DNA of 48,482 nt, from NCBI GenBank assembly GCA_031460175.1, contig JAVKGW010000011.1:1-48482 (forward strand), in the 5' to 3' direction. The notes below the pieces were generated by a model that saw only the letters and a list, made by a program, of their open reading frames with translations, was not told the DNA's origin and ran no database searches. A program made the translations under genes and the position numbers. Positions 1,091-14,035 of this stretch are shown piece after piece (position 1 is the first letter of the stretch; every line of letters begins with the position of its first letter). The DNA is from Armatimonadota bacterium. Lineage in GTDB: Bacteria > Sysuimicrobiota > Sysuimicrobiia > Sysuimicrobiales > Sysuimicrobiaceae.

Positions 1091-2137
1091 TCACATGCGC
1101 CTCGCGGGGATTCGGCGGGTAACGGTCTGCCAGACGAAGGTGGGACAGACGGTGGATACTCCCGCGTTCCGCGCTCCCGCCACGATCAACGTAATCGCCT
1201 CCGGGGCATGCGCGAACCGCACGAACGCCTCGTCCGGAAGGTCTGGATCCAGCCCCCCTGCCTTCGCAAGGCGCCGCAACTCCCCCGCCCGACGCCCGAA
1301 GTGCTCCCACAGGAACGCCCGCACTCGATGCTTGCTCCACCCCGCCTCCGCGATGAGCTGCGCGTGCTCCGGCCCCATCACCACGATGGACCCGTGGCCT
1401 CGGGGGGAGGGGAAATATCCTCCTCCGTATGACATGGAGTCCGCGATGTTGAGGAGGATGTGTTCCGGCTGCTTGGAGTCCCGCTGTTCCACGGGCATGG
1501 TCCCCCTCGCCCAGGCCACGGTCACCGTGCTCTCGTCCTCCCGAAATCCCCGCTCCACGTGCAACGGTTCCCAGGGGCTCTCCTCCTCGTTCTCCGCGAT
1601 GCAGAAGCTGTACTTGGCCGGGGTCCCCTGGGTGCTCTGATCGAAGGTGTGGGGCCGGATCCCGAAGGCGTTCATGACCACCAGCCGCAGGGCCCGGCCC
1701 ACGGTGGCGTTCGCCCGGTCTCCGGGACTGAACACGTTGTCCGTGCCGTTAAAGCCCAGCTCCTGGCGCACGGGACCGTTGATCACCACCAGCACCGCCT
1801 GGCCGGTGGTGCTCTGGAACAACCCGCGGCTCACCGGCAGGTCCCGAACAGCCTCCAGCATGGCCAGGACCACGGGGAAGTGCTCCGGCCGACACCCCGC
1901 CATGACCGCGTTCGCGGCCGCAAGGCGCACGGTGCACTTCCGCCCCAGGTGCTCCTGCGCGAAGATCACCTCCTCTGGGTCCCGGTCCACCTGCGCGAGG
2001 AACTCCTCCACGAACTCCTCCGCGGGAGGCACCACCGGCAACCCGTCCGTCCACCCCTGCTCGTAACAGTACTCGATGGCCGCCCGGGCCTCCCGCACCG
2101 CCTCCCGGGTCGGTTCCGTCCGCACTCCTTGACTCAT
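1091..2137 (-). CDS. UGSC-associated partner protein (stand-alone form), function unknown
   Basis: A 348-residue soluble protein of unknown function. It is homologous from about residue 20 to its end to the C-terminal domain of the fused selenoprotein at 8201-9808. Conserved blocks shared by the two copies include EQGWTDGLPVVPP, VRLAAANAVMAGCRPEHFPV, GDRANATVGRA, STQGTPAKYSFCIAENEEES and GWSKHRVR. Five cysteines are conserved (C24, C68, C82, the Cys of SFCIAENEE and the Cys near STVCPTF), which would fit redox or metal chemistry but proves nothing. The start ATG overlaps the stop of the selenoprotein gene as ATGA, so the two are translationally coupled. Fusion of the same two parts in the second copy strongly suggests a physical complex. 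No signal peptide or membrane segment is visible. It was probably annotated elsewhere only as hypothetical or UGSC-linked. Confidence 0.85.
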   Translation of the reverse strand: MSQGVRTEPTREAVREARAAIEYCYEQGWTDGLPVVPPAEEFVEEFLAQVDRDPEEVIFAQEHLGRKCTVRLAAANAVMAGCRPEHFPVVLAMLEAVRDLPVSRGLFQSTTGQAVLVVINGPVRQELGFNGTDNVFSPGDRANATVGRALRLVVMNAFGIRPHTFDQSTQGTPAKYSFCIAENEEESPWEPLHVERGFREDESTVTVAWARGTMPVEQRDSKQPEHILLNIADSMSYGGGYFPSPRGHGSIVVMGPEHAQLIAEAGWSKHRVRAFLWEHFGRRAGELRRLAKAGGLDPDLPDEAFVRFAHAPEAITLIVAGARNAGVSTVCPTFVWQTVTRRIPARRM

Positions 2138-2670
2138 CCTGCCACCTCCTCCTGCAGCAGCCGCACCACTTCCGGAAGGGCCTGCTCCGCCCGGACTCTC
2201 AACTCCTCCGGGGAGAGACTGCTGATGGGGTGCGGAATGGCCACATACGGATACCCTTCCAATCCCTGGGTCCGAGCCATGGCGTCCGCGGTGCGGCGGA
2301 AGGCATCCGTGATCACCGCGGCAGCCGGAATCCCCCGTTCCTCGAACAGGATGCCGTCGGCCACACTGGCCGCGCTGCAGGACCCTCAGTCCCCGACCCC
2401 GGGGATCACGAAATCACACTGCGTCCCGAGCTCCTCCACCAGTTCCGGAGGAACGGGGACCGCGAAGTGCGGCTTGCGCCGCAGCACCACCTCCCGCACC
2501 CCGTACCTCTCCCGGAGGAGATCCCCCAGGGCCCTGAGGAAGACATCCGCGTTCCGCTTGCCGTTGTCCACGAGCCCCACCCGGGCCCCCCGCAGGGACC
2601 GACCGCCCCTTGGGGCCATGCGCCGCCTGATCTCCTGCACCCCTCCTGTGGGATCCACCAGCACCGCCAT
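2134..2670 (-). CDS. UGSC family selenoprotein (in-frame TGA decoded as selenocysteine)
   Basis: A 178-residue protein read through an in-frame TGA at 2386-2388 (codon 95). The start ATG is at 2668-2670 behind GGAGGTGAGGGG. Before the TGA comes a conserved N-terminal half (RGARVGLVDNGKRNAD, then GVGD); after it the frame continues GSCSAASVADGILFEERGIP and AIPHPISSL to the stop. The motif is therefore U95-G-S-C98, the hallmark of the family listed in databases as UGSC family (seleno)protein. The paralogue at 8201-9808 has the TGA at the same codon, with homologous protein on both sides, so a nonsense mutation is unlikely. A SECIS-like hairpin follows directly. A U-x-x-C pair suggests thiol/selenol redox chemistry; the reaction is unknown. 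It starts 5 bases after the ABC ATPase gene and overlaps the partner gene by 4. SelA/B/C/D must be encoded elsewhere. Confidence 0.9.
2349..2388 (-). promoter_or_regulatory. Predicted bacterial SECIS element of UGSC selenoprotein A
   Basis: The mRNA from the UGA (2388-2386) folds by eye into an outer GGGU/AUCC stem and an apical stem CGCGGCC/GGCCG(A)CG with one bulged A, closing the five-base loop AGUGU (2367-2363). A G lies at loop position 2, 20 nt after the UGA, which fits the usual spacing for SelB-dependent bacterial SECIS elements. The apical hairpin is the same in the second selenoprotein gene. No folding program was run. Confidence 0.72.
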
Positions 2671-2675
2671 TCCCC

Positions 2676-3809
2676 TCACCTCCCTCCGTTGGAATGATGT
2701 GCGATGGCCTCCGAGGGAGACTGCCGGAGAAGGAGGATCCGCCGCGGGTCCAGCCGGAGGTAGACCGCCTCCCCGATCCGCCAAACCGGCGGACCGTAGG
2801 CCATCAGGGTCCCCCTTCCCTCGGCCAGGGCGATCCGGTACCGCATCACCGTCCCCTCGAACAGGGCGGAGAGGACCCTCCCTCCCACCACGTTCACGTC
2901 CCCCGTGGGTTCCGGCTCCATCACCACGTGCTCGGGCCGGATTCCCACCCACACCCGCTCGCCCCGCGGCACATCGCCTTCCTCCAACCGCACCTGCAGC
3001 CGCCCCCAGTCCGTCTCCACCACGGCCACTTGCCCGTTCATCGCCACCAGGCGCCCGGTGAACAGGTTCGTGGTCCCCACGAACTCCGCCACGAACCGGG
3101 TCCGGGGCCGCTCGTACAGTTGCTGGGGGGTCCCGACTTCCTCCACCCGTCCCTCCCGCATTACCGCCACCACGTCTGACAGGGACAGCGCCTCCACCTG
3201 GTCGTGCGTCACGTAGACCGTGGTAATGCCCAGCTTCCGCTGCAATCCCCGCAGTTCCTCCCGAACCTGCTCCCGCACCTTCGCATCCAGGTTGCTGAGG
3301 GGCTCATCCAGGAGCAGAACCTGAGGCTCGTACACCAGGGCCCGGGCCAGGGCCACCCGCTGCTGTTGGCCTCCGCTCAGCAACGGCGCGGGCCGGTCCC
3401 CCAACCCTCCCAGTCCCACCAGCTCCAGCGCCGCCTCCACCCGCCTCCGGATCTCCCCGGGGGGCAGGCGCCGCACCCTCAAGGGATACGCCACGTTCTC
3501 GAACACCGTCAGGTGCGGCCAGATGGCATAGGACTGGAAGACCATCCCGATGTTCCGGCGCTCCGGAGGGAGATAGATCCCCTGCGCCCGGCTGAAAACC
3601 ACCTGCTCCCCGAACCGGATCTCCCCGTCATCGGGCCGCTCCAACCCGGCGATGCACCGCAGCACCGTGGTCTTCCCGCACCCGCTGGGGCCCAGCAGGG
3701 TCAGGATCTTCCCCTCCGGGGCCTCCAGGGTCACCCCGTCCACGGCCCGGACCCGCTGGCCCTGGAAGGTGAACACCTTCCGGAGGGAGATCAACCGGAT
3801 GGAGGCCAC
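2676..3809 (-). CDS. ABC transporter ATP-binding protein (iron(III)/spermidine type, FbpC/PotA-like)
   Basis: A 377-residue ATPase that would power the permease encoded immediately upstream. Visible motifs are Walker A GPSGCGKT (40-47), Q-loop Q92, signature LSGGQ (144-148), Walker B LLLDEP (165-170) and H-loop H202, followed by a C-terminal TOBE-type regulatory domain (about 235-365, including VGIRPEHV). The start is GTG at 3807-3809 with AGGTGAT upstream. Length and C-terminal domain match the FbpC/PotA class rather than peptide transporters. It is the third gene of the binding protein-permease-ATPase set and lies 5 bases before the UGSC selenoprotein gene. The 42-base gap to the permease gene contains a weak TATGCT-like -10 sequence, not convincing as a separate promoter. 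Confidence 0.93.
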   Translation of the reverse strand: MASIRLISLRKVFTFQGQRVRAVDGVTLEAPEGKILTLLGPSGCGKTTVLRCIAGLERPDDGEIRFGEQVVFSRAQGIYLPPERRNIGMVFQSYAIWPHLTVFENVAYPLRVRRLPPGEIRRRVEAALELVGLGGLGDRPAPLLSGGQQQRVALARALVYEPQVLLLDEPLSNLDAKVREQVREELRGLQRKLGITTVYVTHDQVEALSLSDVVAVMREGRVEEVGTPQQLYERPRTRFVAEFVGTTNLFTGRLVAMNGQVAVVETDWGRLQVRLEEGDVPRGERVWVGIRPEHVVMEPEPTGDVNVVGGRVLSALFEGTVMRYRIALAEGRGTLMAYGPPVWRIGEAVYLRLDPRRILLLRQSPSEAIAHHSNGGR

Positions 3810-3851
3810 GACCGATCACCTAAATCTAGCATACCTTGTGCTCTCACGGAT

Positions 3852-5570
3852 CTAGAGCGCGGCGGCCGGCCCGCGCATCCACCGGCGTGCCGCGGCGACC
3901 ACGACCACACACAGGGCGCTCACGAGCACGCCCAGGGCCGCCATGTCCCCGACCTGCCCGTCCTCCCACAGGTGGAACAGCAGGGGACCCACGGGCTCCG
4001 AGCGGGGAGTATACAGGAGGACGGAGGTGCTGAACTCCTGGATGTAGATGGTAAAGAGGATGGCCCAACCCGCGAGGAACCCGGGCCGAACGAGCGGCAG
4101 GAGGACCTTCCGGAACGTGCTCCCAAACCCCGCCCCGCAAACCCTCGAGGATTCCTCCAGCTCCCGGTGCACCTGCACCATGGTGGAGGTCATGGCCCTC
4201 AGGCCGTAGGGCAGAAACCGCGTGACGTAGCTGATGAGGAGGATCCATAGGGTCCCGTAGATGGGCAGGGGGAGCTGCGCGTAGGCCCAAAGCAGCCCCA
4301 CCGCGAGGGCCGTCCCGGGAAAGGCCCAGGGCACGAAGGATAGCCCCTCCAGGATCCCGCTGAACCGAGTCCTCCGATGAACGGTGAAGTACGCCACCAG
4401 GGAGGCGAGGAGCATGGCCACGGTGGCCCCGCCCAGTGCCAGGGTGAGGCTCACCTGGAGGGCCCGCCCCACCCGACCACTCTGGAGAAGGAACTCGTAG
4501 TGCCGGAGCGTGAGCTGGCTCAGCATCTCCCGGCTCGGCACCTGGTAGTAGGGCGTCAAGGAGACGTACACGAGCACCGCCAGGGGGACGATCACGAGCA
4601 GCCCGAGGATCCCCAGCGCCACCCCGGAGGCCAGATACCGCCACCGACCCAGGTTGATCACCCGGGGTCGGTATCCCCGTCCCGTGATGGTGGCGTAGCG
4701 CTCCGAAAGTGCGGTCAGCCTCCGGTAGATCCCCACCAGGGTGAGGGTGATGGCCAGCTGGCCCACCGCATACGTGGCCGCGAGGTTGTGGTTGGGAGGG
4801 AGGGTCGCCAGGGCCTCCCGGAAGATCCTCGTGCTCAGGACCTCGATCCCCACGGGCATCCCCAGGACCACGGGGATATCGAGGCTCTCGATGGCCCGGG
4901 CGAAGTTCAGGGTGGCCGTGCCGATGACCGCGGGCGCCATGACGGGGATGGTCACCCGCCGGGTCACATCCAGCACGCCGGACCCCGCCATCCGTCCGGC
5001 CTCCTCCAGGGCCGGGTCCATGGCCCGCAGGGCCGCGGAGAGGATGAGGAAGGCGAGGGGCGTGAGCACCAACCCCTCCACGAACATCATCCCGCCCAGG
5101 GAGTACCCGTTCAGGACGGGAAGTCCGAGAGGCTGCAACACCCCTCGATTGAGCAGCCCGATGCGGGGGCTCAGCACCAGGCTCCACGAGGTGGCCACGA
5201 GGAACCGGGGGATCACGTTGGGCGCCAGACCGATGAGCTCAAACAGGCCCCTGCCCGGTGCATCGGTGCGTACCGTAATCCACGCGAGGACCGTCGCCAG
5301 AAGCATGGAAAATGCGGTGGCCCCCGCGGCGAAGAGCAGGGAGTTCACCAGGATCCGGTAGGTCCTCGGATCCGTGTAGGCCTCCCGATAGTGCGCGGTG
5401 GTCCAGCGCCCGGGGAGTCCCAGGGGCGCATCGCTGACGCTCCCGTAAAAGAGCATCACCGTGGGGTACAGGGCGAGGAAGCCCACGAGAAGGCCTGTGG
5501 CCACCGCCACCCACGTGCCCGTCTCCACCGAGAGCCAGGGGCGCGGGCCTGCCAGTACCCGCCCGTTCAT
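3852..5570 (-). CDS. ABC transporter permease, two fused permease domains (FbpB-like)
   Basis: A 572-residue integral membrane protein made of two binding-protein-dependent permease domains in tandem, as in ferric iron FbpB/SfuB-type transporters. Each half carries an EAA-like cytoplasmic loop: LEEAGRMAGSG with the following IPVMAP in the first half, and LEESSRVCGAGFGS with VLLPLVRP in the second. About twelve hydrophobic segments alternate with short loops. The start ATG is at 5568-5570 with only a weak ribosome-binding site. It sits between the binding-protein gene (36-base gap) and the ATPase gene (42-base gap). The substrate cannot be read from sequence: proteins of this class carry iron(III), but related ones carry phosphonates, thiamine or organic anions. 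The neighbours make a catabolic substrate a fair alternative to iron. Confidence 0.92.
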   Translation of the reverse strand: MNGRVLAGPRPWLSVETGTWVAVATGLLVGFLALYPTVMLFYGSVSDAPLGLPGRWTTAHYREAYTDPRTYRILVNSLLFAAGATAFSMLLATVLAWITVRTDAPGRGLFELIGLAPNVIPRFLVATSWSLVLSPRIGLLNRGVLQPLGLPVLNGYSLGGMMFVEGLVLTPLAFLILSAALRAMDPALEEAGRMAGSGVLDVTRRVTIPVMAPAVIGTATLNFARAIESLDIPVVLGMPVGIEVLSTRIFREALATLPPNHNLAATYAVGQLAITLTLVGIYRRLTALSERYATITGRGYRPRVINLGRWRYLASGVALGILGLLVIVPLAVLVYVSLTPYYQVPSREMLSQLTLRHYEFLLQSGRVGRALQVSLTLALGGATVAMLLASLVAYFTVHRRTRFSGILEGLSFVPWAFPGTALAVGLLWAYAQLPLPIYGTLWILLISYVTRFLPYGLRAMTSTMVQVHRELEESSRVCGAGFGSTFRKVLLPLVRPGFLAGWAILFTIYIQEFSTSVLLYTPRSEPVGPLLFHLWEDGQVGDMAALGVLVSALCVVVVAAARRWMRGPAAAL

Positions 5571-5606
5571 GCCGGTGCCTTGTACCGCGAGGCCACCGTC
5601 GCTCGA

Positions 5607-6617
5607 CTATCGCCGCGCAAACACCCTCTCCAGCTCGCGCCGCCACTCCTGCAGCCTTTCGGCTCCCAGGGGCTGCGCCACCTGGAATCGGATCTGCTCC
5701 AAGCCTGGGATGGGCGACTTCACCCCCCGCACCAGGACCACCTCCCCTTCCTGCGCGAGGGCCAAAAGGGTGGCCCGGGAGTGGAGGGTCTCCATGAGGA
5801 GCCGCGCCGCGTTGGGGTGCGGAGGCCGAGCGCTCACCGCGAAGTGGGCACCCACGGCCATCATGGGATTGATCCGCGCGTAATCGATGGGGGCTCCCTG
5901 CGCCCGGAAGAGGGGAACGTAGTGCAGGAGCGTGATCCCGATGGGGTATTCCCCGCTGATCACCTTTGGGGGGACCAGGGGATCCTGCCCCACGAAGGCC
6001 GGGTTCTGTTCCGCGAAGCCCCGGAGGAACCGGTCATAATCCCTTCCCAACACGTTGCGGAGCCAGTGCAACCAGAGGGCGATGGTTACGTTCCGCTGGG
6101 GATCCGCCATCACGATCTTCCCCCGCCACTTCGGGTCGATGAGATCCAGGTACGACCGGGGGACCTCCGCCGCGGGGACCAGCCGCGGGTTGTAGATCAC
6201 CGCGTCCGCGATCACCCGGTAGGGGGGAGGGAGGGTGGGATCCCGCCACGTTACCGTGAGTCCCTCGATGGGAGGCCACGGACCCCGACCGATGGCTCCC
6301 GCGTCCCGGAGCACCTGCATGGTCTCCGTGGTGCCCTCCGCCACGTCAAAGAGCCACCGGCCCACCCGGGTCTCCGTGAGTGCCCGGTCCAGGATCCCGC
6401 TCGCGGAGCTCCTCCACTCCTCCACCGGCACCCCGTATCGTCCCTCATAGATCTTCTTCACCACGTTGAAGATGGGCTCCCGCATGGCCACGTACACGAC
6501 CACCTTTCCCTCCCGCCGGGCCGCCTGCACCACATCCGGCTGCGCCATCAGCACAGGCGCCCCTGCCAGGCCGAGGAGGGTCAGGACCATCCCCGCCACA
6601 TGCCATCGGTACCTCAT
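5607..6617 (-). CDS. ABC transporter substrate-binding protein, iron(III)/spermidine type (FbpA-like)
   Basis: A secreted periplasmic-type binding protein of family 1/FbpA class, 336 residues. A signal sequence is visible (RYRWHVAGMVLTLLGLAGA with an A-x-A-like site near PVLMAQ). The body starts ARREGKVVVYVAM, typical of the family. ATG 6615-6617 is preferred because GGAGGAGACC lies directly upstream; an ATG at 6641 would add eight residues without a ribosome-binding site. The paired tyrosines that bind Fe(III) in FbpA are not obvious, so the ligand may not be iron. It stands between the family 5 binding protein (37-base gap) and its permease, within a single-direction gene string. Confidence 0.85.
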   Translation of the reverse strand: MRYRWHVAGMVLTLLGLAGAPVLMAQPDVVQAARREGKVVVYVAMREPIFNVVKKIYEGRYGVPVEEWRSSASGILDRALTETRVGRWLFDVAEGTTETMQVLRDAGAIGRGPWPPIEGLTVTWRDPTLPPPYRVIADAVIYNPRLVPAAEVPRSYLDLIDPKWRGKIVMADPQRNVTIALWLHWLRNVLGRDYDRFLRGFAEQNPAFVGQDPLVPPKVISGEYPIGITLLHYVPLFRAQGAPIDYARINPMMAVGAHFAVSARPPHPNAARLLMETLHSRATLLALAQEGEVVLVRGVKSPIPGLEQIRFQVAQPLGAERLQEWRRELERVFARR

Positions 6618-6654
6618 GGTCTCCTCCTGCGTGTTCTGCAAACCTTACTTATGC

Positions 6655-8181
6655 TTATGGCCGTGCTTTCCATGCGTTCGCGGGCTCCCACCAAGGCCAG
6701 GTAGATTTGGTGAGGTGGGCCGTTCCCCGCACCTCGGGCCATGCCACGTAGGTCCGCATGGCCATGAACACCGGAATGACCGTGTAATCCTGCATCAGCA
6801 GCCGATGAACTTGTTGGAGCTTGTGCCGCTGGGGCGTAAGGGTCGCCGCAGACTCCTCCACCAGCCGTTCCAGCCCCTCCGGACGCTTCAGGCTGACAAA
6901 CCCTTCCGGGGAGTTCGTGAAGTAGAACCGGATGTAGTTGTTGAAGTTCGGGAAGTAGCCGTAGAAGTGAAGGAGGACGCCCCGCCATCCGTTCCGCTGG
7001 TACTCCACGTACCGCCCGATCTCCGGCGTCTCCAGCTCCGCCCGGATCCCGACTTCCTGGAGATACCGCTGGACCGCCAGGGCAATGTCCCGCTCCAGGT
7101 AGAAGGCCTTGATGACCCGGGTGCTGAACCCATTGGGATATCCCGCCTGGGCGAGCAGCTCCTTCGCCCGCGCAGGGTTATACGAGGGTCCTGGGTAGTC
7201 CTGAAGGGCTGCAGGACTGAACGGGTGCGCAATCTGATTCCACGGGCGCCAGTTCCCGCGACCGAGCGCCCGGGCGATGGCATCCCGGTCCACCGCGTAC
7301 GCGACCGCTTCCCGAACCCTCCGGTCCGCGAAGGGAGAATCGGAATTCGCACTGTCCGGAATGATCATCAGGATCCCTGCTCCCGGAGGCCCGGTGATGA
7401 GCTGGAACCTCCCTGTATCCCGAAGCTCTGCGATGATGGCAGGGTCTCCGAACCCGGCGATGTCCAGTTGGCGCGCCAGGAGAGCAGCTTTGCGCGTCTG
7501 CTCGTCCCGGATGAACCGCAGCTCGAGGCGGTCCAGGTAGGGCTTCCCGCGATCCCAGTATTGATTAAACCGGACATAATCCGCGTACGCGTTCGGGTCA
7601 TATCGCACGATCCGGAACGGCCCCGTGCCCACCGGCTGCCACTGGGCCCGCTCCTGCCCCAATCGCTGGACGGTGGCAGGGGAAGTAATGAGAACCGCGC
7701 TCAGCGAGATGTAGATCCCGTTGTCCCACTTCTCCAGGTTCACCCGCACCGTGTACCGGTCCAGCACGTCCGCGGACTTGATGTAGGCAGGCACCCGCCG
7801 GGCCTGGATGTACCCTTCCAAGCTGAACTTCACCGCCTCCGCCGTCATCTCCGTGCCGTCGTGGAAGAGGACTCCCCGCCGCAGCCGGAGGATGAGGGCT
7901 TTCCTGTCCGGAGCCACCTCCCATCGCTCCGCGAGCCTCGGCAGGACCCGGTTATACGCGTCCACCCACACCGGGGCCTCGTAGACGGGCATGGCGGCGA
8001 TGATGCCGAACACGGGCATGATCCACGGCACCCCGAAGGGGCCTCCCGCGGGTTCGTCCGCCACCCGAAGCACCCCTCCCCGCTGGGGCCGCTCCGCAGG
8101 ACCCGCCAGACCCACCACTCCCTGGATGGACAGGACCACCGCCAGGGCCACGCCAACGGCCAACGCGACCATCTTCCGCAT
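6655..8181 (-). CDS. Peptide/solute ABC transporter substrate-binding protein, copy B
   Basis: A complete 508-residue family 5 (DppA/OppA-like) extracellular binding protein. The start ATG at 8179-8181 follows GGGGTGAG. A signal peptide is visible (KMVALAVGVALAVVLSIQG), then GGVLRVADEP, FHDGTEMTAEAVKFSLE (a family hallmark), QYWDRGKPYLDRLELRFI and the YNPARAKELLAQAGYPNG region. It is a close paralogue of the partial gene at 1-1054 and a more distant one of the gene at 44988-46505. The three share the unusual VADEP/VVDEP...PFGVPW N-terminal block, so they form a local subfamily. It begins 19 bases after the stop of the fused selenoprotein gene. No dedicated family 5 permeases are near, so it may act with a remote permease, or act as a stand-alone solute scavenger. 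Confidence 0.93.
   Translation of the reverse strand: MRKMVALAVGVALAVVLSIQGVVGLAGPAERPQRGGVLRVADEPAGGPFGVPWIMPVFGIIAAMPVYEAPVWVDAYNRVLPRLAERWEVAPDRKALILRLRRGVLFHDGTEMTAEAVKFSLEGYIQARRVPAYIKSADVLDRYTVRVNLEKWDNGIYISLSAVLITSPATVQRLGQERAQWQPVGTGPFRIVRYDPNAYADYVRFNQYWDRGKPYLDRLELRFIRDEQTRKAALLARQLDIAGFGDPAIIAELRDTGRFQLITGPPGAGILMIIPDSANSDSPFADRRVREAVAYAVDRDAIARALGRGNWRPWNQIAHPFSPAALQDYPGPSYNPARAKELLAQAGYPNGFSTRVIKAFYLERDIALAVQRYLQEVGIRAELETPEIGRYVEYQRNGWRGVLLHFYGYFPNFNNYIRFYFTNSPEGFVSLKRPEGLERLVEESAATLTPQRHKLQQVHRLLMQDYTVIPVFMAMRTYVAWPEVRGTAHLTKSTWPWWEPANAWKARP
7137..7260. repeat. Exact 124-bp repeat (second copy)
   Basis: Identical to window bases 1-124, and located at the equivalent place in the paralogous binding-protein gene. 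Adjacent stretches of the two genes are clearly more diverged, so the identity is local rather than the general level of the duplication. Confidence 0.95.
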
Positions 8182-8200: not shown

Positions 8201-9808
8201 TTATTCGTGCACCCTTGCCTCCGGAACGCCCCGCGTCGCCGTCTGCCAGGCGAAGGTGGGACACACGGTAGACACTCCCGCGTTCCTCGCCCCCGCGATG
8301 ACCAAGGTAATGGCTTCCGGGCCCGGCGCGAACCGCACGAACGCCTCGTCCGGAAGGTCCGGATCCAGCCCCCCTGCCTTCGCAAGGCGCCGCAACTCCC
8401 CCGCCCGACGCCCGAAGTGCTCCCACAGAAACTCCCGCACCCGATGCTTGCTCCACCCCGCCTCCGCGATGAGCTGCGCGTGCTCCGGCCCCATCACCAC
8501 GATGGACCCGTGCCCGAACCGCCAGGGGAAGTAGGCACCTGCGTAGGACATGGAGTCCGCAATGCTGAGGAGGATGTGCTCCGGCCGCTTGGAGTCCCGC
8601 TGCTCCACGTGTAGGGTGCTCTGGGCCAGGGCCACGGTCACTGTGCTTTCCTCCCGGGCAAATCCTCGCTCCACGTGCAACGGCTCCCAGGGGCTCTCCT
8701 CCTCGTTCTCCGCGATGCAGAAGCTGTACTTGGCCGGGGTCCCCTGGGTGCTCAGGTCGTACACGTGCGGCCGGATCCCCAAGGCGTTTTGGATCACCAG
8801 CCGGATCGCCCGGCCCACGGTGGCGTTCGCCCGGTCCCCGGGGCCCAGGACGTTGTCCTTGCAGTTGAACGCCAGCCGGTTCCGGATCGGGCCGTTCACG
8901 ATCAGCAAGACCGCCTGGCCATGCTGGGGCATGAGCACCGCTCGGTTTTCGACAAGGGCCTGCAGGGCTTCCAAGGCCGCCAGGACCACGGGGAAGTGCT
9001 CCGGCCGACACCCCGCCATGACCGCGTTCGCGGCCGCAAGGCGCACGGTGCAGCTCCTGCCTAAGTGCTCCTGGCTCAGGACCACCTCATCTGGATCCCG
9101 TTGTACCTGGGCCAGGAACCTTTGGACGAGCTCCTCCGTGGGAGGTACCACGGGCAATCCGTCCGTCCACCCCTGCTCGTAGCAGAACTCGATCAGGGAA
9201 GGAACCGCATCGCCCCTCGGGAGGAACGCTTCCTCCTCCGGGCGCGCAGGACGCTCCCACCCTCTCCCCACGTCCCGGGCTTCTCCCACGCCCAACACAC
9301 GCAGTACCTCGGGAAGCACCTGTTCTGCCCGGGCCCGAAGCTCCGCGGAGGTGAGGCTACTGAGGGGGTGCGGGATCGCCACATAGGGGTATCCTGGTAC
9401 TCCCAGGTCCCGGGCTCGGGTATCTGCCATCCCGCGGAAGGCCTCCGTGACCACCACCGCGGTCGGGATCCCTTGCTCCTCCAACGCGATCCCGTCGGCC
9501 ACACTGGCCGCGGCACAGGCCCCTCAATCTCCCACGGCATGTACCACGAACGTACACGCCTCGGAGAGCTCCCGGAGCATCTCCCGGGGGGCCGGGAGGG
9601 TGGGGTTGGGTTTCCGGCGGATGAGGACCTCTCCGACTCCGAAGCGCTCCCGGAGCAGCTCCCCCAACGCCTGTACGAACCGATCCGCATTGCGCTTCCC
9701 GCTGTCCACGAGCCCCACCCGGGCTCCCCGGAGCTCGGCCTGACCTCTGGGCGCCAGGGTGCGCGAAATCCGCTCTACCCGCCCGATGGGGGCCACGAGT
9801 CCCGGCAT
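8201..9808 (-). CDS. Fused UGSC selenoprotein plus partner domain (in-frame TGA decoded as selenocysteine)
   Basis: A predicted 535-residue fusion. Start ATG 9806-9808 follows GGGGGAGGG. Residues 1 to about 175 match the small UGSC selenoprotein of 2134-2670: RGARVGLVDSGKRNAD, AVGD, then TGA at 9524-9526 (codon 95), then GACAAASVADGIALEEQGIP and AIPHPLSSL. The motif is U95-G-A-C98, Ser replaced by Ala. After a linker of some 35 residues (about 175-210) comes the partner domain (EQGWTDGLPVVPP through STVCPTF) matching the separate gene at 1091-2137. There is no stop codon or frameshift between the two domains. The identical TGA position and shared SECIS hairpin support selenocysteine. It lies 49 bases after the dioxygenase gene and 19 before binding protein B. 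The reaction is not known; the fusion argues that both domains act in one enzyme. Confidence 0.9.
9492..9526 (-). promoter_or_regulatory. Predicted bacterial SECIS element of the fused UGSC selenoprotein
   Basis: Downstream of UGA 9526-9524 the mRNA has the apical stem CCGCGGCC/GGCCG(A)CGG closing loop AGUGU (9505-9501). The second loop base is G and lies 20 nt after the UGA, exactly as in the first gene. The 20-base core GCGGCCAGUGUGGCCGACGG is identical in both genes although other nearby codons differ. Confidence 0.72.
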
Positions 9809-9857: not shown

Positions 9858-10850
9858 TCAGCGCACCGCCACCTCCACGGGAGGCGTCCCGTAGGTGTGG
9901 AAGGTGGCCACGGTGGGCATCCCCCAAGCCTGTCCTCTCTTGCGCTCCGCCTCGCTCCACACGATGGGCCTCCAGTCCGGAGCCAGGATCAGGCGGGCAC
10001 CCGGACACCCGATCTCCACCCGGTTGCCGCCGGGCTCGTACACGTAGAGGAAGAACGTCTGCTGGACCGCGTGCTTGTAGGGCCCGTACTCGATGAAGAT
10101 CCCGTGCTCCAGGCAGATGTCCGCGGCCCGCAGGACCTCCTCCCGACTGTCCACCGCATAGCACACGTGGTGGAACCGCCCGCGCGCTCCCGTCTGGTCC
10201 TCCGTGATGGCCACCTCATAGCCCTTGTTGTTCGTGGTCACCCACGCGCCCTTCTCCGAGCCGTCGTCGAAGATGATGATCTCCGTGAGCCGGCAGCCCA
10301 GGGCCTCCTGCATCAAGATCCGGGTGGCACGCACGTCCGCGGCGAACAGGTTGATGTGATCCAGCCGTCGGAGATTGGCACCTCGCGCGGGAAATCGGGA
10401 GGCCTGGTTCTTCAACGCGGGCCTCGTCTCCTCCGTGGGCCGGTACCACTCCACCTCGTAGAAGATCTCCCCCAGGTGGCCGTCCGGGGTCCGGAACTGA
10501 TAGGCGGGGCCGTGCCCCCGATCCCCCTCGATCCACCCCACGCCGTAGCCCGACCGCTCCAGAGCCTGGACCCGACGGTTGAGGGCCTCCGGGCTTGCGG
10601 CGCGGAAGGCGAAGTGGCCCATCCCAGGCAGCCTCGCGGCCGTGAGCTTCAGGGTGTGATGGGCATAGTCGTCCCACCCGCGCAGGTACACGGAGTCCCC
10701 GGACTGTTCGGTGATGGTCATCCCCATGACGTCCACGAAGAACCGGAGACTTTCCTCCAGCTTGGGGGTGAGGAGCTCCAGGTGGGCGAGGTGGGCGAGA
10801 TCACAACTCGGGGGGCTCGGGGGAATCGTCGGGCCCATGAGCTCACTCAT
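9858..10850 (-). CDS. VOC-family extradiol ring-cleavage dioxygenase (type I, catechol 2,3-dioxygenase-like)
   Basis: A 330-residue two-domain vicinal-oxygen-chelate protein. The N-terminal domain starts near LAHLELLTPKLEESLRFF and the catalytic C-terminal domain near LDHINLFAADV. The Fe(II) ligands expected for type I extradiol dioxygenases are present: H165 (DHIN), H227/H228 (RFHHVCYAV) and E279 (NRVEIG). The length is typical of catechol or 2,3-dihydroxybiphenyl dioxygenases, so cleavage of a catechol-like ring with O2 is the best guess, though the natural substrate is open. ATG 10848-10850 is chosen over the upstream in-frame start because AAGGAGGTAGCC precedes it. It is the first gene of the minus-strand operon, behind the promoter at 10906-10935, and divergent from the hydrolase/FCD operon. 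Confidence 0.88.
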   Translation of the reverse strand: MSELMGPTIPPSPPSCDLAHLAHLELLTPKLEESLRFFVDVMGMTITEQSGDSVYLRGWDDYAHHTLKLTAARLPGMGHFAFRAASPEALNRRVQALERSGYGVGWIEGDRGHGPAYQFRTPDGHLGEIFYEVEWYRPTEETRPALKNQASRFPARGANLRRLDHINLFAADVRATRILMQEALGCRLTEIIIFDDGSEKGAWVTTNNKGYEVAITEDQTGARGRFHHVCYAVDSREEVLRAADICLEHGIFIEYGPYKHAVQQTFFLYVYEPGGNRVEIGCPGARLILAPDWRPIVWSEAERKRGQAWGMPTVATFHTYGTPPVEVAVR

Positions 10851-10905
10851 GGCTACCTCCTTCGCCACAGGATGCGGAAATCCTCGGCGTGCCTTACGCA
10901 GTTTC

Positions 10906-10935
10906 ACTCTAGGAGGATGCCTACGAATCTGTCAA
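10906..10935 (-). promoter_or_regulatory. Predicted sigma-70 promoter of the dioxygenase/selenoprotein operon
   Basis: Read on the minus strand: -35 TTGACA (10935-10930), 18-base spacer, -10 TAGAGT (10911-10906). The -35 box is a perfect match and overlaps the palindrome at 10931-10948, an arrangement typical of repression. Confidence 0.6.
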
Positions 10936-10948: not shown

Positions 10949-11019
10949 CGGGTCCATCCGTGTCGTGTACCTTTAGTCAAAGAACGCTCCTGCGGTGTGG
11001 GAGCAGAAAAGGGGGACCC

Positions 11020-11946
11020 ATGGGCGAGGAGATCCGGGCGCCCTCGGAGCGGGCGCAGGCGGTGGTTCGCGGCGCGTACGACCTTCACGTGCATACCGGC
11101 CCGGACGCCCTCCCCCGCCGTTGTCACGATATCGAGGCGGCGCGGGGATTTCTCCATCGCGGGCTGGCGGGATTTGCCATCAAGTCCCACTACACCTCCA
11201 CCGCGGCCCGGGCGCGCCTGGTGAACCTCCTGGTGCCCGGCATTCGGGCATTCGGTGCCCTCTGCCTGAACGCCGCCGTGGGCGGCATGAACCCCGTGGC
11301 GGTGGAGATCGCGGCGCGGGAGGGCGCCCGGATCATCTGGATGCCCACGGTGGACGCGGAGAACGAGGCCCGGGCCCTCCGGGAGGGGCGCACATCTGAA
11401 AAGGCTCCCTACTGGGCCCGCCTCCAGGAGGAGCTGCGTCAGAAGGGGGTCTCCTATGATCCCGTGCGGGTGGTGGACGGATCCGGGAGGGTGCGGCCCG
11501 AAACCCGCGAGGTCCTGCGGGCCATCGCGCGGCACGACCTCGTCCTCGCCACGGGACACCTGAGCCGCGACGAGATCTTCGCGGTGGTGGAAGCCGCCAA
11601 GCAGGAGGGCATCCGTCGCTTGGTCATCACCCACCCGGACTTTCCCACGCAGGACCTCCCCATGGAGGACCAGCGCCTCCTGGCCCGGGAAGGAGCCCTG
11701 CTGGAACGGTGCTTTGCGACCGCGCATACAGGGAAAATATCGTGGGCGGAGCTGTGCACCAGGATCCGGGAGGTGGGGGTGGAGCACTCCCTCCTCAGCA
11801 GCGACCTCGGACAACCCACCGCTCCCCCGCCCGAGGACGGCCTCGCCTTGATGGCAGACCGGCTCCTGGAAGCCGGATTTTCTGAGGAAGAGATCCGCAT
11901 CATGGCGGTGCGCAATCCACAGCGGCTCGTGGACGGTGAGTCCTAA
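11020..11946 (+). CDS. DUF6282-like metal-dependent hydrolase (amidohydrolase/PHP-like)
   Basis: A 308-residue cytosolic protein with an N-terminal DLHVHTGPD metal-binding motif and later metal-ligand-type histidines (KSHYTS, ATGHLS, THPDFP), typical of TIM-barrel metal hydrolases. The overall pattern resembles proteins grouped as DUF6282. The start ATG 11020-11022 follows GGGGG; a GTG at 10960 would add 20 residues but would lie over the promoter region. It heads the plus-strand operon and ends two bases before the regulator gene. Such enzymes often hydrolyse a C-N, C-O or C-C bond of a pathway intermediate; here a lactone or ring-cleavage product is possible but not shown. It is not recognisably LigI (pyrone dicarboxylate lactonase). 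Confidence 0.78.
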   Translation: MGEEIRAPSERAQAVVRGAYDLHVHTGPDALPRRCHDIEAARGFLHRGLAGFAIKSHYTSTAARARLVNLLVPGIRAFGALCLNAAVGGMNPVAVEIAAREGARIIWMPTVDAENEARALREGRTSEKAPYWARLQEELRQKGVSYDPVRVVDGSGRVRPETREVLRAIARHDLVLATGHLSRDEIFAVVEAAKQEGIRRLVITHPDFPTQDLPMEDQRLLAREGALLERCFATAHTGKISWAELCTRIREVGVEHSLLSSDLGQPTAPPPEDGLALMADRLLEAGFSEEEIRIMAVRNPQRLVDGES

Positions 11947-11948
11947 CC

Positions 11949-12641
11949 ATGGAAGAGGGAAAGGTCTCCGTCCGACCGCAACGGACAGAGGACTACTGCT
12001 ACGAGGCCCTACGCCGCGCCATCCTAGAGGGACGGCTGCTCCCCAACCAGCGGCTCGTGGAGGTGGAGCTGGCCCGGACGTTCGGCGTCGGCCGCGCGGC
12101 GGTGCGCACCGCGCTGGTACGGCTGGAGCAGGAAGGGATCGTCCAACGGGAGCCCAACCGGGGAGCACGGGTGCGGTTGGTGACCGAGTCGGAGGCCGTG
12201 GAGATCCTAGAAGCCCGGGCGGCGCTGGAGTGCCTGACCGTACGATACGCGGCCCGTCGGGCGACCCCCGAGGACATCGGAGAGCTCCAGAAGGTCCTGC
12301 GCCGTATGGAGGTTTGCCGGGAGCGGGGCGACCCGCTGGGCTACTCGGAGATGAACCACGAACTTCACCGGATCCTTCTCCGCATCGCCGGGCACGCGAC
12401 CGCGGCCCGGCTGATCGATGTCCTGCAGGTCCAGAACGTGCGGTATCGCTACCGGACCGTGTTGATCCCCGGCCGGCTCGCCCGATCCCTGGAGGAACAC
12501 CGGGCCATCGTGGAAGCGGTGGCAAGGGGCGATCCGGACGGTGCGGAAGCCGCCATGCGCCATCACCTCCAGCAGGTGATCGAGGCCATGCGTCAGGCGG
12601 CCCAGATGGATCACCTTCGGCGGGTTTGGAATCTGGACTGA
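11949..12641 (+). CDS. GntR-family transcriptional regulator with FCD ligand-binding domain
   Basis: A 230-residue regulator. The N-terminal winged helix (about 14-75: YEALRRAILEGRLLPNQRLVE, then RTALVRLEQEGIV) is typical GntR. The C-terminal all-helical FCD domain (about 88-220) keeps the usual histidine positions (NHELHR, EEHRAIV, AMRHHL) that hold a metal and help bind small organic acids. It is the second gene of the plus-strand operon, two bases after the hydrolase gene. FCD regulators commonly repress neighbouring catabolic genes until a carboxylate intermediate binds. The palindrome at 10931-10948 in the divergent promoter is the likely target, so it would control both arms of the island. 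Confidence 0.93.
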   Translation: MEEGKVSVRPQRTEDYCYEALRRAILEGRLLPNQRLVEVELARTFGVGRAAVRTALVRLEQEGIVQREPNRGARVRLVTESEAVEILEARAALECLTVRYAARRATPEDIGELQKVLRRMEVCRERGDPLGYSEMNHELHRILLRIAGHATAARLIDVLQVQNVRYRYRTVLIPGRLARSLEEHRAIVEAVARGDPDGAEAAMRHHLQQVIEAMRQAAQMDHLRRVWNLD

Positions 12642-12659
12642 AGTTAAGGAGGGAACGCC

Positions 12660-13379
12660 GTGGAACCCAGCCGCAGGCTTCTTGTGGTCAGTGCCCACGC
12701 CGCGGATTTTGTGTGGCGCGCAGGCGGGGCCATCGCCACCGTGACCACCCGAGGCGGAAGCGCCCTGGTGGTGGCCCTCTCCTACGGCGAACGCGGGGAA
12801 TCCGGGGAGCTTTGGCGGGAACCGGGGCAGACCATCGAGCGGGTGAAGGCCATCCGGCACGAGGAGGCGAGCCGGGCCGCGGAGATCCTGGGGGCCCGGT
12901 TCCAGAGCCTCGACCTGGGCGATTACCCCCTCGAGGTGGACCGGAACGCCCTGGAGAAGCTTGCAGAGATCTTCCGGGAGTTCGAGCCGGACTGTGTCCT
13001 CACCCACGCGGAACGGGATCCCCTGAACCCAGACCACGCGGTGGCCTTCCAGGCCACGGAACGCGCCCGGCAGCTCGCGGCGGGCGCGGGGGTGGCCAGC
13101 GCCTTCCGCACCGTTCTGCCTCCCCGGGTGTTCGCCTTCGAACCGCACCAGCCGGAGCTCTGCGGGTTCGTCCCGGACACCTTCCTGGACATCACGCCCG
13201 TGTACGAGCTCAAACAAAAGGCCATGGAGGCCATGGCCTCCCAGAAGTACCTGCAGGAGTACTATGGAGCCATGGCGATCCGCCGGGCCAACCACGCGCG
13301 GCGACTCTCAGGCAATTCCCGCATCCGGTACGCGGAAGCCTTCCAGCGCATCCTGCCCATCGTGGTGGAGGCCCTATGA
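12660..13379 (+). CDS. PIG-L fold protein, 4-oxalomesaconate hydratase (GalB)-like
   Basis: A 239-residue PIG-L/LmbE-fold protein starting at GTG 12660 behind AAGGAGGGAAC. The usual zinc motif AHPDD is changed to SAHAADFVWRAGG (H13, D16), followed by LSYGERGESGELW and a late His region (HAERDPLNPDHAVAF). To my knowledge this variant block is characteristic of GalB, the 4-oxalomesaconate hydratase of gallate and protocatechuate 4,5-cleavage pathways, rather than of N-acetylglucosamine deacetylases. GalB turns 4-oxalomesaconate into 4-carboxy-4-hydroxy-2-oxoadipate. The next gene, overlapping by ATGA, is a GalC-like aldolase for exactly that product, which supports the call. A plain deacetylase remains possible. 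Confidence 0.78.
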   Translation: MEPSRRLLVVSAHAADFVWRAGGAIATVTTRGGSALVVALSYGERGESGELWREPGQTIERVKAIRHEEASRAAEILGARFQSLDLGDYPLEVDRNALEKLAEIFREFEPDCVLTHAERDPLNPDHAVAFQATERARQLAAGAGVASAFRTVLPPRVFAFEPHQPELCGFVPDTFLDITPVYELKQKAMEAMASQKYLQEYYGAMAIRRANHARRLSGNSRIRYAEAFQRILPIVVEAL

Positions 13380-14035
13380 GCTCCCTCTCTCCGGTGGACC
13401 CGAAGGAACTGGCAGCGCTCGGCGTGGCCACGCTCTACGAGGCGAGCGGCCGGGCGGGTCTCGTGGAGGGTCCTCTGATCCAGGTGGTTCCTGGGAGTCG
13501 GGCCGCGGGGCCGGCCCGCACGGTCCTGTGCGGCCAGGACGACAACCTCATGGTCCACGCGGTCATGGATCAGGTGCGGCCGCAGGAGGTCCTCGTGCTC
13601 ACCATGCCCAGGCCCGCACCGGTTGCCCTCGTGGGGGAGCTGCTGGCCATCCAGGCCAAGAGGCGGGGGGCTGCGGCACTCCTGGTGGACGCCGCGGTCC
13701 GGGACGTGGAAGCCCTCCGCGACCTGGGCCTCCCCATCTGGACACGGTACGTGAGCGTCCGGGGCGCCACGAAGGATGTGGTGGGGGCCATCAACGTGCC
13801 GGTGACCGTGGGGGGTGCGGAGATCCGCCCCGGAGACTGGGTGGTCCTGGACGCGGACGGGGCGGTGGTCATCGCCGCGGAGCGCCTCCCGGAGGTCGTG
13901 CAGGCCGCCCGGGCCCGTGCGGTGCGCGAACAGGATCTGCGGCGAAAGCTCGAGGCGGGACAGCTCACCTACGACCTCCACGGCCTGCGCGCCAAGGTGG
14001 AAGGGACCGCGGCCCCCCGATCCCCGAGGCCGTAA
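13376..14035 (+). CDS. RraA-fold aldolase, 4-carboxy-4-hydroxy-2-oxoadipate aldolase (GalC/LigK)-like
   Basis: A 219-residue RraA-like protein. Family features are GVATLYEASGRAG (16-28), DNLMVHA (56-62), VGELLAIQAKRRG (86-98), the DAAVRD block with R109 and D110, and the C-terminal TYDLHGLR. This matches class II pyruvate aldolases that split 4-carboxy-4-hydroxy-2-oxoadipate to pyruvate and oxaloacetate, and 4-hydroxy-4-methyl-2-oxoglutarate. True RraA RNase E inhibitors are shorter and lack this tail. The gene overlaps the GalB-like gene and closes the plus-strand operon. A weak AACCC/GGGTT hairpin (14035-14050) follows. Together with the dioxygenase it suggests breakdown of an aromatic acid to central metabolites. 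Confidence 0.85.
   Translation: MSSLSPVDPKELAALGVATLYEASGRAGLVEGPLIQVVPGSRAAGPARTVLCGQDDNLMVHAVMDQVRPQEVLVLTMPRPAPVALVGELLAIQAKRRGAAALLVDAAVRDVEALRDLGLPIWTRYVSVRGATKDVVGAINVPVTVGGAEIRPGDWVVLDADGAVVIAAERLPEVVQAARARAVREQDLRRKLEAGQLTYDLHGLRAKVEGTAAPRSPRP

Follow-up and report, generated by a model that had tools for sequence, protein, structure and literature searches.

Does an open reading frame that crosses a TGA codon and runs on into a second domain encode one selenium-dependent enzyme and, if so, of what kind? The question is posed by the window analysed here, the whole 48,482-nucleotide stretch of contig JAVKGW010000011.1 from an Armatimonadota bacterium, in which a fused gene of the UGSC selenoprotein family and a split copy of the same parts lie on one strand (Table 1). 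A sequence-only reading had placed the fused gene at 8201-9808, with a TGA at codon 95 in both copies and the partner protein encoded in the same frame, and reading the minus strand, the strand left unstated there, confirms all of this. The fused gene (9808..8201) has a single in-frame TGA, followed by Gly-Ala-Cys, and its product reads MPGLV...HAVGD-U-GACAAASVADG..., where U-G-A-C constitutes a CxxC-type redox pair. Its N-terminal part belongs to the UGSC family, with profile scores above both curated cut-offs (PF24696, 175.7 bits against a cut-off of 25; NF041046, 145.4 bits against 125) and a fitting U95-G-A-C98 motif, and the split UGSC protein also exceeds both (206.8 and 167.5 bits, respectively). 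The linker, checked for a stop or frameshift, has neither in the source genome or in a sister species. In the split copy, the ATG of the partner frame (2137..1091) shares 4 bases with the end of the UGSC frame (2670..2134); the partner parts of the two copies are 78% identical and the UGSC parts about 61-64%. At least three further UGSC/partner copies are present in this genome, including two split pairs on contig C12 (G000:C12; L143:4774-6318, 12031-13552) and, on contig C16, a partial fused copy cut by the contig end (L144:8806-9498).

Table 1. Features around the fused and split UGSC genes, in window positions.
Feature	Position	Strand	Remarks
Fused selenoprotein gene (UGSC domain, linker, partner domain)	8201..9808	-	535 codons, TAA stop
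UGSC domain, residues 4-173	9290..9799	-	PF24696 and NF041046 matches; predicted five-stranded parallel alpha/beta
In-frame TGA, codon 95, selenocysteine	9524..9526	-	TGA also in sister species
Cys98 codon, second half of U-G-A-C pair	9515..9517	-	invariant in 53 aligned UGSC domains
SECIS-like hairpin after UGA	9495..9511	-	apical loop begins GU (9504-9503)
Linker, residues 174-203	9200..9289	-	open frame here and in sister species; low model confidence at residues 181-184
Partner domain, residues 204-535	8204..9199	-	conserved motifs; without Pfam or NCBIfam model
Partner Cys267 codon (NAVMAGC)	9008..9010	-	invariant in 61-sequence alignment; Ala in a few remote members
Catechol 2,3-dioxygenase, first gene of same-strand row	9858..10907	-	TIGR03211 above cut-off
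Substrate-binding protein SBP_bac_5, 20 bp past fused gene	6655..8181	-	profile match
ABC importer between fused and split copies	2676..6641	-	SBP_bac_6 5607-6641, permease 3852-5570, ATPase 2676-3809
Split-copy UGSC selenoprotein, 178 aa, TGA at codon 95, UGSC motif	2134..2670	-	ends in TGA
Split-copy partner protein, 348 aa	1091..2137	-	start overlaps stop of UGSC gene
DUF6282 gene, divergent from row	10960-11946	+	
GntR regulator, divergent	11949-12641	+	
PIG-L gene, divergent	12660-13379	+	
RraA/CHA-aldolase-like gene, divergent	13379-14035	+	

The case for selenocysteine (Sec) begins with a sister genome of the same genus (G036), which carries an orthologous fusion, read to the contig end (L010/L146), with the TGA, the frame, the UGAC motif and the open linker all kept. 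Between this gene and that of the window dN/dS is 0.21 (by segment, 0.29 up to the TGA and 0.195 beyond it, with 0.39 for the linker and 0.11 for the partner part), and 46 of the 47 bases from the TGA onward are identical despite a synonymous divergence of about 0.7. These bases include a SECIS-like hairpin that, across 79 distinct UGSC sites, starts about 13 bases past the TGA, has a loop beginning with GU in every one of the 79, displays compensatory changes at three stem pairs, and pairs better than all 500 amino-acid-preserving permutations. The SECIS claim rests on this 79-site comparison because the single sequence by itself has an ordinary folding energy (z near 0). The genome contains selA, selB, selC and selD, with SelB adjoining tRNA-Sec and SelA nearby, and Cys replaces Sec in one homologue (L039) and in several plasmid-borne or other split ones. 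Its own SelD gene (G000:C1:341633-342556, L148) has an in-frame TGA too and therefore probably encodes a selenoprotein. On this comparative evidence the fused gene is a true selenoprotein gene, and the TGA kept in the sister, the hairpin, the Sec machinery and the Cys-replaced homologues uphold the claim that both copies are. Automatic annotation would instead take the TGA as an ordinary stop, making the region a disrupted gene followed by a partner frame of its own, and this has in fact befallen a relative in Acidovorax, annotated as a 97-aa hypothetical protein that ends at the TGA (CCX87_RS20235), with no gene listed for the remainder; given the dN/dS after the TGA, the hairpin, the complete Sec machinery and the TGA conserved in the sister species, such a reading is strongly disfavoured and scarcely credible.

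The kinship of the UGSC domain offers a first indication of its chemistry. In the AlphaFold2 model it has five parallel strands with helices between them, Sec95 starting the helix after strand 3, and its matches in the PDB are weak and of the flavodoxin/lumazine-synthase type, with no thioredoxin among the top 50. The predicted strand and helix order and this search contradict a thioredoxin fold, and with it the Trx-like fold proposed for UGSC in a 2008 report (PMC2398784). Profile comparison points elsewhere. Members of PF07355, the family of GrdB, were taken from genomes that also hold UGSC genes and carry their own TGA in VILTST-U-GTS/C...ELEKAGIP...HPLG; in hhalign, the UGSC profile matched their C-terminal region at 95.0% (E=4e-8) over 86 columns, Sec on Sec, and still reached 83% in that register once the motif and its 10 flanking columns on each side had been masked, while 23 unrelated profiles gave at most 6.2% and 60 column shuffles at most 4.1%. 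The score, the Sec-on-Sec register, the masking and the controls make a common ancestry of UGSC and the GrdB Sec domain very probable. The Pfam GRDB model found no match in the UGSC fusion (only UGSC matched Pfam at E<=0.1), and neither GrdB (PF07355) nor GrdE (PF09338) was found in this genome. That Pfam model ends just before the Sec, leaving the Sec end unmodelled. Stand-alone GrdB/PrdB-like proteins with U-P-x-C type motifs (L119-L128, L131-L134) share Chloroflexi, Binatia and proteobacterial genomes with UGSC.

Whether the two parts act as one unit was approached from the partner side, by scanning an alignment of the partner alone against 84,980 species genomes, which returned 79 loci in Chloroflexi/SAR202, Gamma- and Betaproteobacteria, Rokubacteria, Binatia, Bacillota and others. 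With the window included, a UGSC gene accompanies 80 of 88 partner genes on the same strand of the stretch examined, and in 67 of the 88 it lies at most 300 bp away, UGSC first in 20 and partner first in 47; that neighbours occur in both orders speaks against the mere inheritance of a single arrangement. The neighbouring clusters are diverse, and no third gene is conserved across the 79 genome loci. In-frame fusions recur in Rokubacteria (L047, L107), in Betaproteobacteria (L096) and, two in tandem, in G036 (L145), and extend to the cultured isolates Acidovorax sp. T1 (with Sec) and Variovorax boronicumulans (with Cys). The Acidovorax fusion resides on a conjugative IncP plasmid, p2-T1 (NZ_CP021650.1; L154:8640-10300). 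On a tree of 100 partner domains the fused state requires three changes, at least two of them forced by well-supported branches, which suggests that fusion arose about three times independently: the L047/L107/L096 fusions represent a separate event, and the window fusion and its sister nest within a clade of same-genus split pairs plus Bacterium HR28 and would therefore derive from a split pair.

Co-evolution and structure prediction point in the same direction. In a mirror-tree comparison, UGSC and partner distances correlate with r=0.858 over 84 pairs, a fit that swaps of paralogues within genomes never matched (0 of 5000 trials). The AlphaFold2 model of the fusion has a mean pLDDT of 92.5 and a pTM of 0.92, and since an undefined placement of 175- and 335-residue domains should cap pTM near 0.65, the two domains are predicted with confidence to be packed together. 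The proposal that the split and fused arrangements on one contig reflect joint action thus gains from adjacency in many phyla, from about three fusions, from co-evolving pairs and from a packed model, in which the high pTM speaks for physical contact between the parts rather than its absence. It could still be supposed that the UGSC domain alone is the enzyme and its partner a regulatory or chaperone-like subunit, in keeping with the existence of UGSC as a separate protein and with the few partner genes that have no UGSC gene in the stretch examined; that the partner is strongly conserved, with a dN/dS below that of the UGSC part, has many invariant polar residues and evolves in step with the UGSC paralogue that it is paired with makes this supposition quite improbable.

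The partner domain itself matched no family model in Pfam or NCBIfam, and a PDB sequence search with the alignment gave no match. Its conserved motifs are GxxDGLPxxPP, NAVMAGC, NGP, RAN-GR and ENEExSPWEP, and the near-invariance of Asp216, Cys267, Asn328, Arg333, Glu367 and Trp374 makes it the likely substrate site. In glycine and proline reductases a pyruvoyl subunit activates the amino group. The conserved Cys in NAVMAGC raised the possibility of a pyruvoyl proprotein of the GrdE/PrdA kind, and this was rejected when profile comparison with GrdE gave only 0.1%; the partner not being GrdE, substrate activation in UGSC proteins must differ from that in glycine reductase.

Within the motif, position 3 of U-G-x-C is Ser in 45, Ala in 5 and Gly in 3 of 53 aligned UGSC domains, and the U/C-x-x-C pair, with Cys98, is invariant in this main family. 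Split genes (L068, L079, L084) can carry UGAC as well, and UGSC is retained in most fusions; the Ser-to-Ala change, for which a tuning of activity had been suggested, is therefore ordinary family variation without a tie to the fusion. Two fused homologues, in Vibrio europaeus (L165:5218-6903) and Sporomusa termitida (L166:5215-6939), read DMGTS at the motif and so lack both Sec and Cys there, and for this reason the scaffold, judging by sequence, seems to have a form that works without the redox pair. Both adjoin aconitase X and DUF126 genes. Such fused relatives lend some colour to a non-redox lyase, isomerase or hydratase in which Sec or Cys would serve as acid-base group or nucleophile and the partner would carry most of the active site, as does the preponderance of Asn, Arg, Glu, Trp and Gly among the partner invariants and the fact that its sole structural matches in the PDB, too weak to be usable at a TM of about 0.2, are class I fumarate hydratases and cyclic amide hydrolases. 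The invariant pair of the main family, the homology to a reductase and the thioredoxin reductase (TrxB) genes at 7 of 15 plasmid loci run counter to a non-redox enzyme, which we regard as unlikely while granting it some weight.

Gene neighbourhoods bear on the substrate and on the electron donor. The minus-strand row from 10907 to 1091, dioxygenase through split pair, has gaps of at most about 50 bp and is probably one transcription unit; a promoter scan gave one match, upstream of the dioxygenase gene (10935-10906), where about 0.8 would be expected by chance. The divergent gene order DUF6282-GntR-PIG-L-RraA-like is kept in the sister genome, and haloarchaeal Cys-type pairs are also found near DUF6282, RraA, CoA-transferase and amidohydrolase genes. 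DUF6282 stands beside UGSC pairs here and in haloarchaea (L159, L160, L163), and its product may be a partner enzyme in one pathway with them. Most UGSC/partner copies in this genome and its sister are near an SBP_bac_5 or SBP_bac_6 protein, for which imported and degraded substrates, with one paralogue each, would be the simplest reading. As to the donor, a TrxB homologue occurs in the flanks of those 7 of 15 plasmid-borne UGSC/partner loci, and the Cys-type pair of Arthrobacter sp. ERGS1:01 follows directly on trxB and trxA. The Cys homologue of Variovorax sp. SRS16 likewise adjoins trxB. TrxB is absent within about 6 kb at all 79 genome loci, nearly all of them Sec-type, and for the window gene we therefore only infer a thioredoxin donor. 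The TrxB genes near some relatives, together with the resemblance of U-G-x-C to UxxC/CxxC, might suggest a thioredoxin-like thiol:disulphide oxidoreductase, the assumption of 2008, with a general antioxidant role and a partner that serves as client or for recycling; a predicted fold order that is not that of thioredoxin, the profile homology to GrdB, and neighbours that are transporters and catabolic enzymes leave little probability for such a role.

The explanation that we prefer, and rate at about an even chance, is that the fusion is a Sec-containing two-domain reductase, probably thioredoxin-fed, for an imported catabolic substrate. Both domains would form one enzyme, in which the Sec95 selenolate attacks an activated carbon, or another bond, of a substrate held by the partner domain; the selenium-bound intermediate would leave as a selenenyl sulphide with Cys98, or possibly with partner Cys267, to be reduced back by a thioredoxin-type donor. 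The substrate would enter via the adjacent transporters and the product pass to the neighbouring catabolic enzymes, and the fusion, having arisen in this genus from a split pair, would mainly keep the two subunits together. Against this reductase stand the lack of any pyruvoyl-subunit sign, the genome loci without TrxB, the DMGTS fusions and the replacement of Cys267 by Ala in some members. A broader and more tentative proposal, possible but distinctly short of probable, is that UGSC and its partner represent an unrecognised class of selenium-dependent reductases with the Sec ancestry of glycine and proline reductases, a non-pyruvoyl partner, use of thioredoxin and one paralogue per imported substrate, which would span Proteobacteria, SAR202-type Chloroflexi and, with Cys, haloarchaea. 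A near-constant partner, an ancestry shared with the GrdB Sec domain, and import and catabolic rows make of an "unknown redox protein" a two-component reductase that can be put to the test, for which the natural fusion is a handy single-chain construct in structure work and assays; in seawater, UGSC proteins rank with the commonest selenoproteins, at 8.2% of selenoprotein genes in one survey (PMC9402790).

How much of this departs from what has been described? The 2008 report (Zhang and Gladyshev, 2008; PMC2398784, Fig. S1A) presents, from the Global Ocean Sampling, a UGSC/"Unknown_1" fusion selenoprotein in which UGSC is joined to a conserved Cys-bearing domain and which, compared by description, fits the fusion here; it very probably has the same architecture, where we infer that Unknown_1 is the partner domain. 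On the strength of that report the fusion architecture itself is not new, and the sequence-only remark that no described enzyme has it stands, as far as the sources at hand go, for enzyme activity, of which none is described, and falls for the arrangement of the parts. The searchable literature gave no mention of the link to GrdB, the near-constancy of the pairing, the recurrence of fusion or the association with TrxB, which may be reported elsewhere; new here, as far as checked, are the homology of UGSC to the GrdB Sec domain, the predicted non-thioredoxin fold and the frequent location of relatives beside thioredoxin reductase. With the UGSC family at large (PF24696/NF041046) the window copy shares the U-G-x-C motif and a Sec with a downstream hairpin, and it differs in its fusion to a 330-residue partner and in Ala for Ser. 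The fusions of Acidovorax sp. T1 (p2-T1), L047/L107 and L096 likewise encode UGSC ahead of the partner in a single frame with one TGA, but are about 38-39% identical to the window protein and have UGSC, not UGAC. The selenolate of glycine reductase is believed to attack an activated carbon of the substrate, and thioredoxin feeds the enzyme (PMC10298544). GrdB, the Sec subunit of glycine/sarcosine/betaine reductase (PF07355), and PrdB-like proteins have a C-terminal Sec domain that is very probably homologous to UGSC, whereas UGSC lacks the GrdB N-terminal region, lies outside the Pfam model, and works with a partner other than GrdE.
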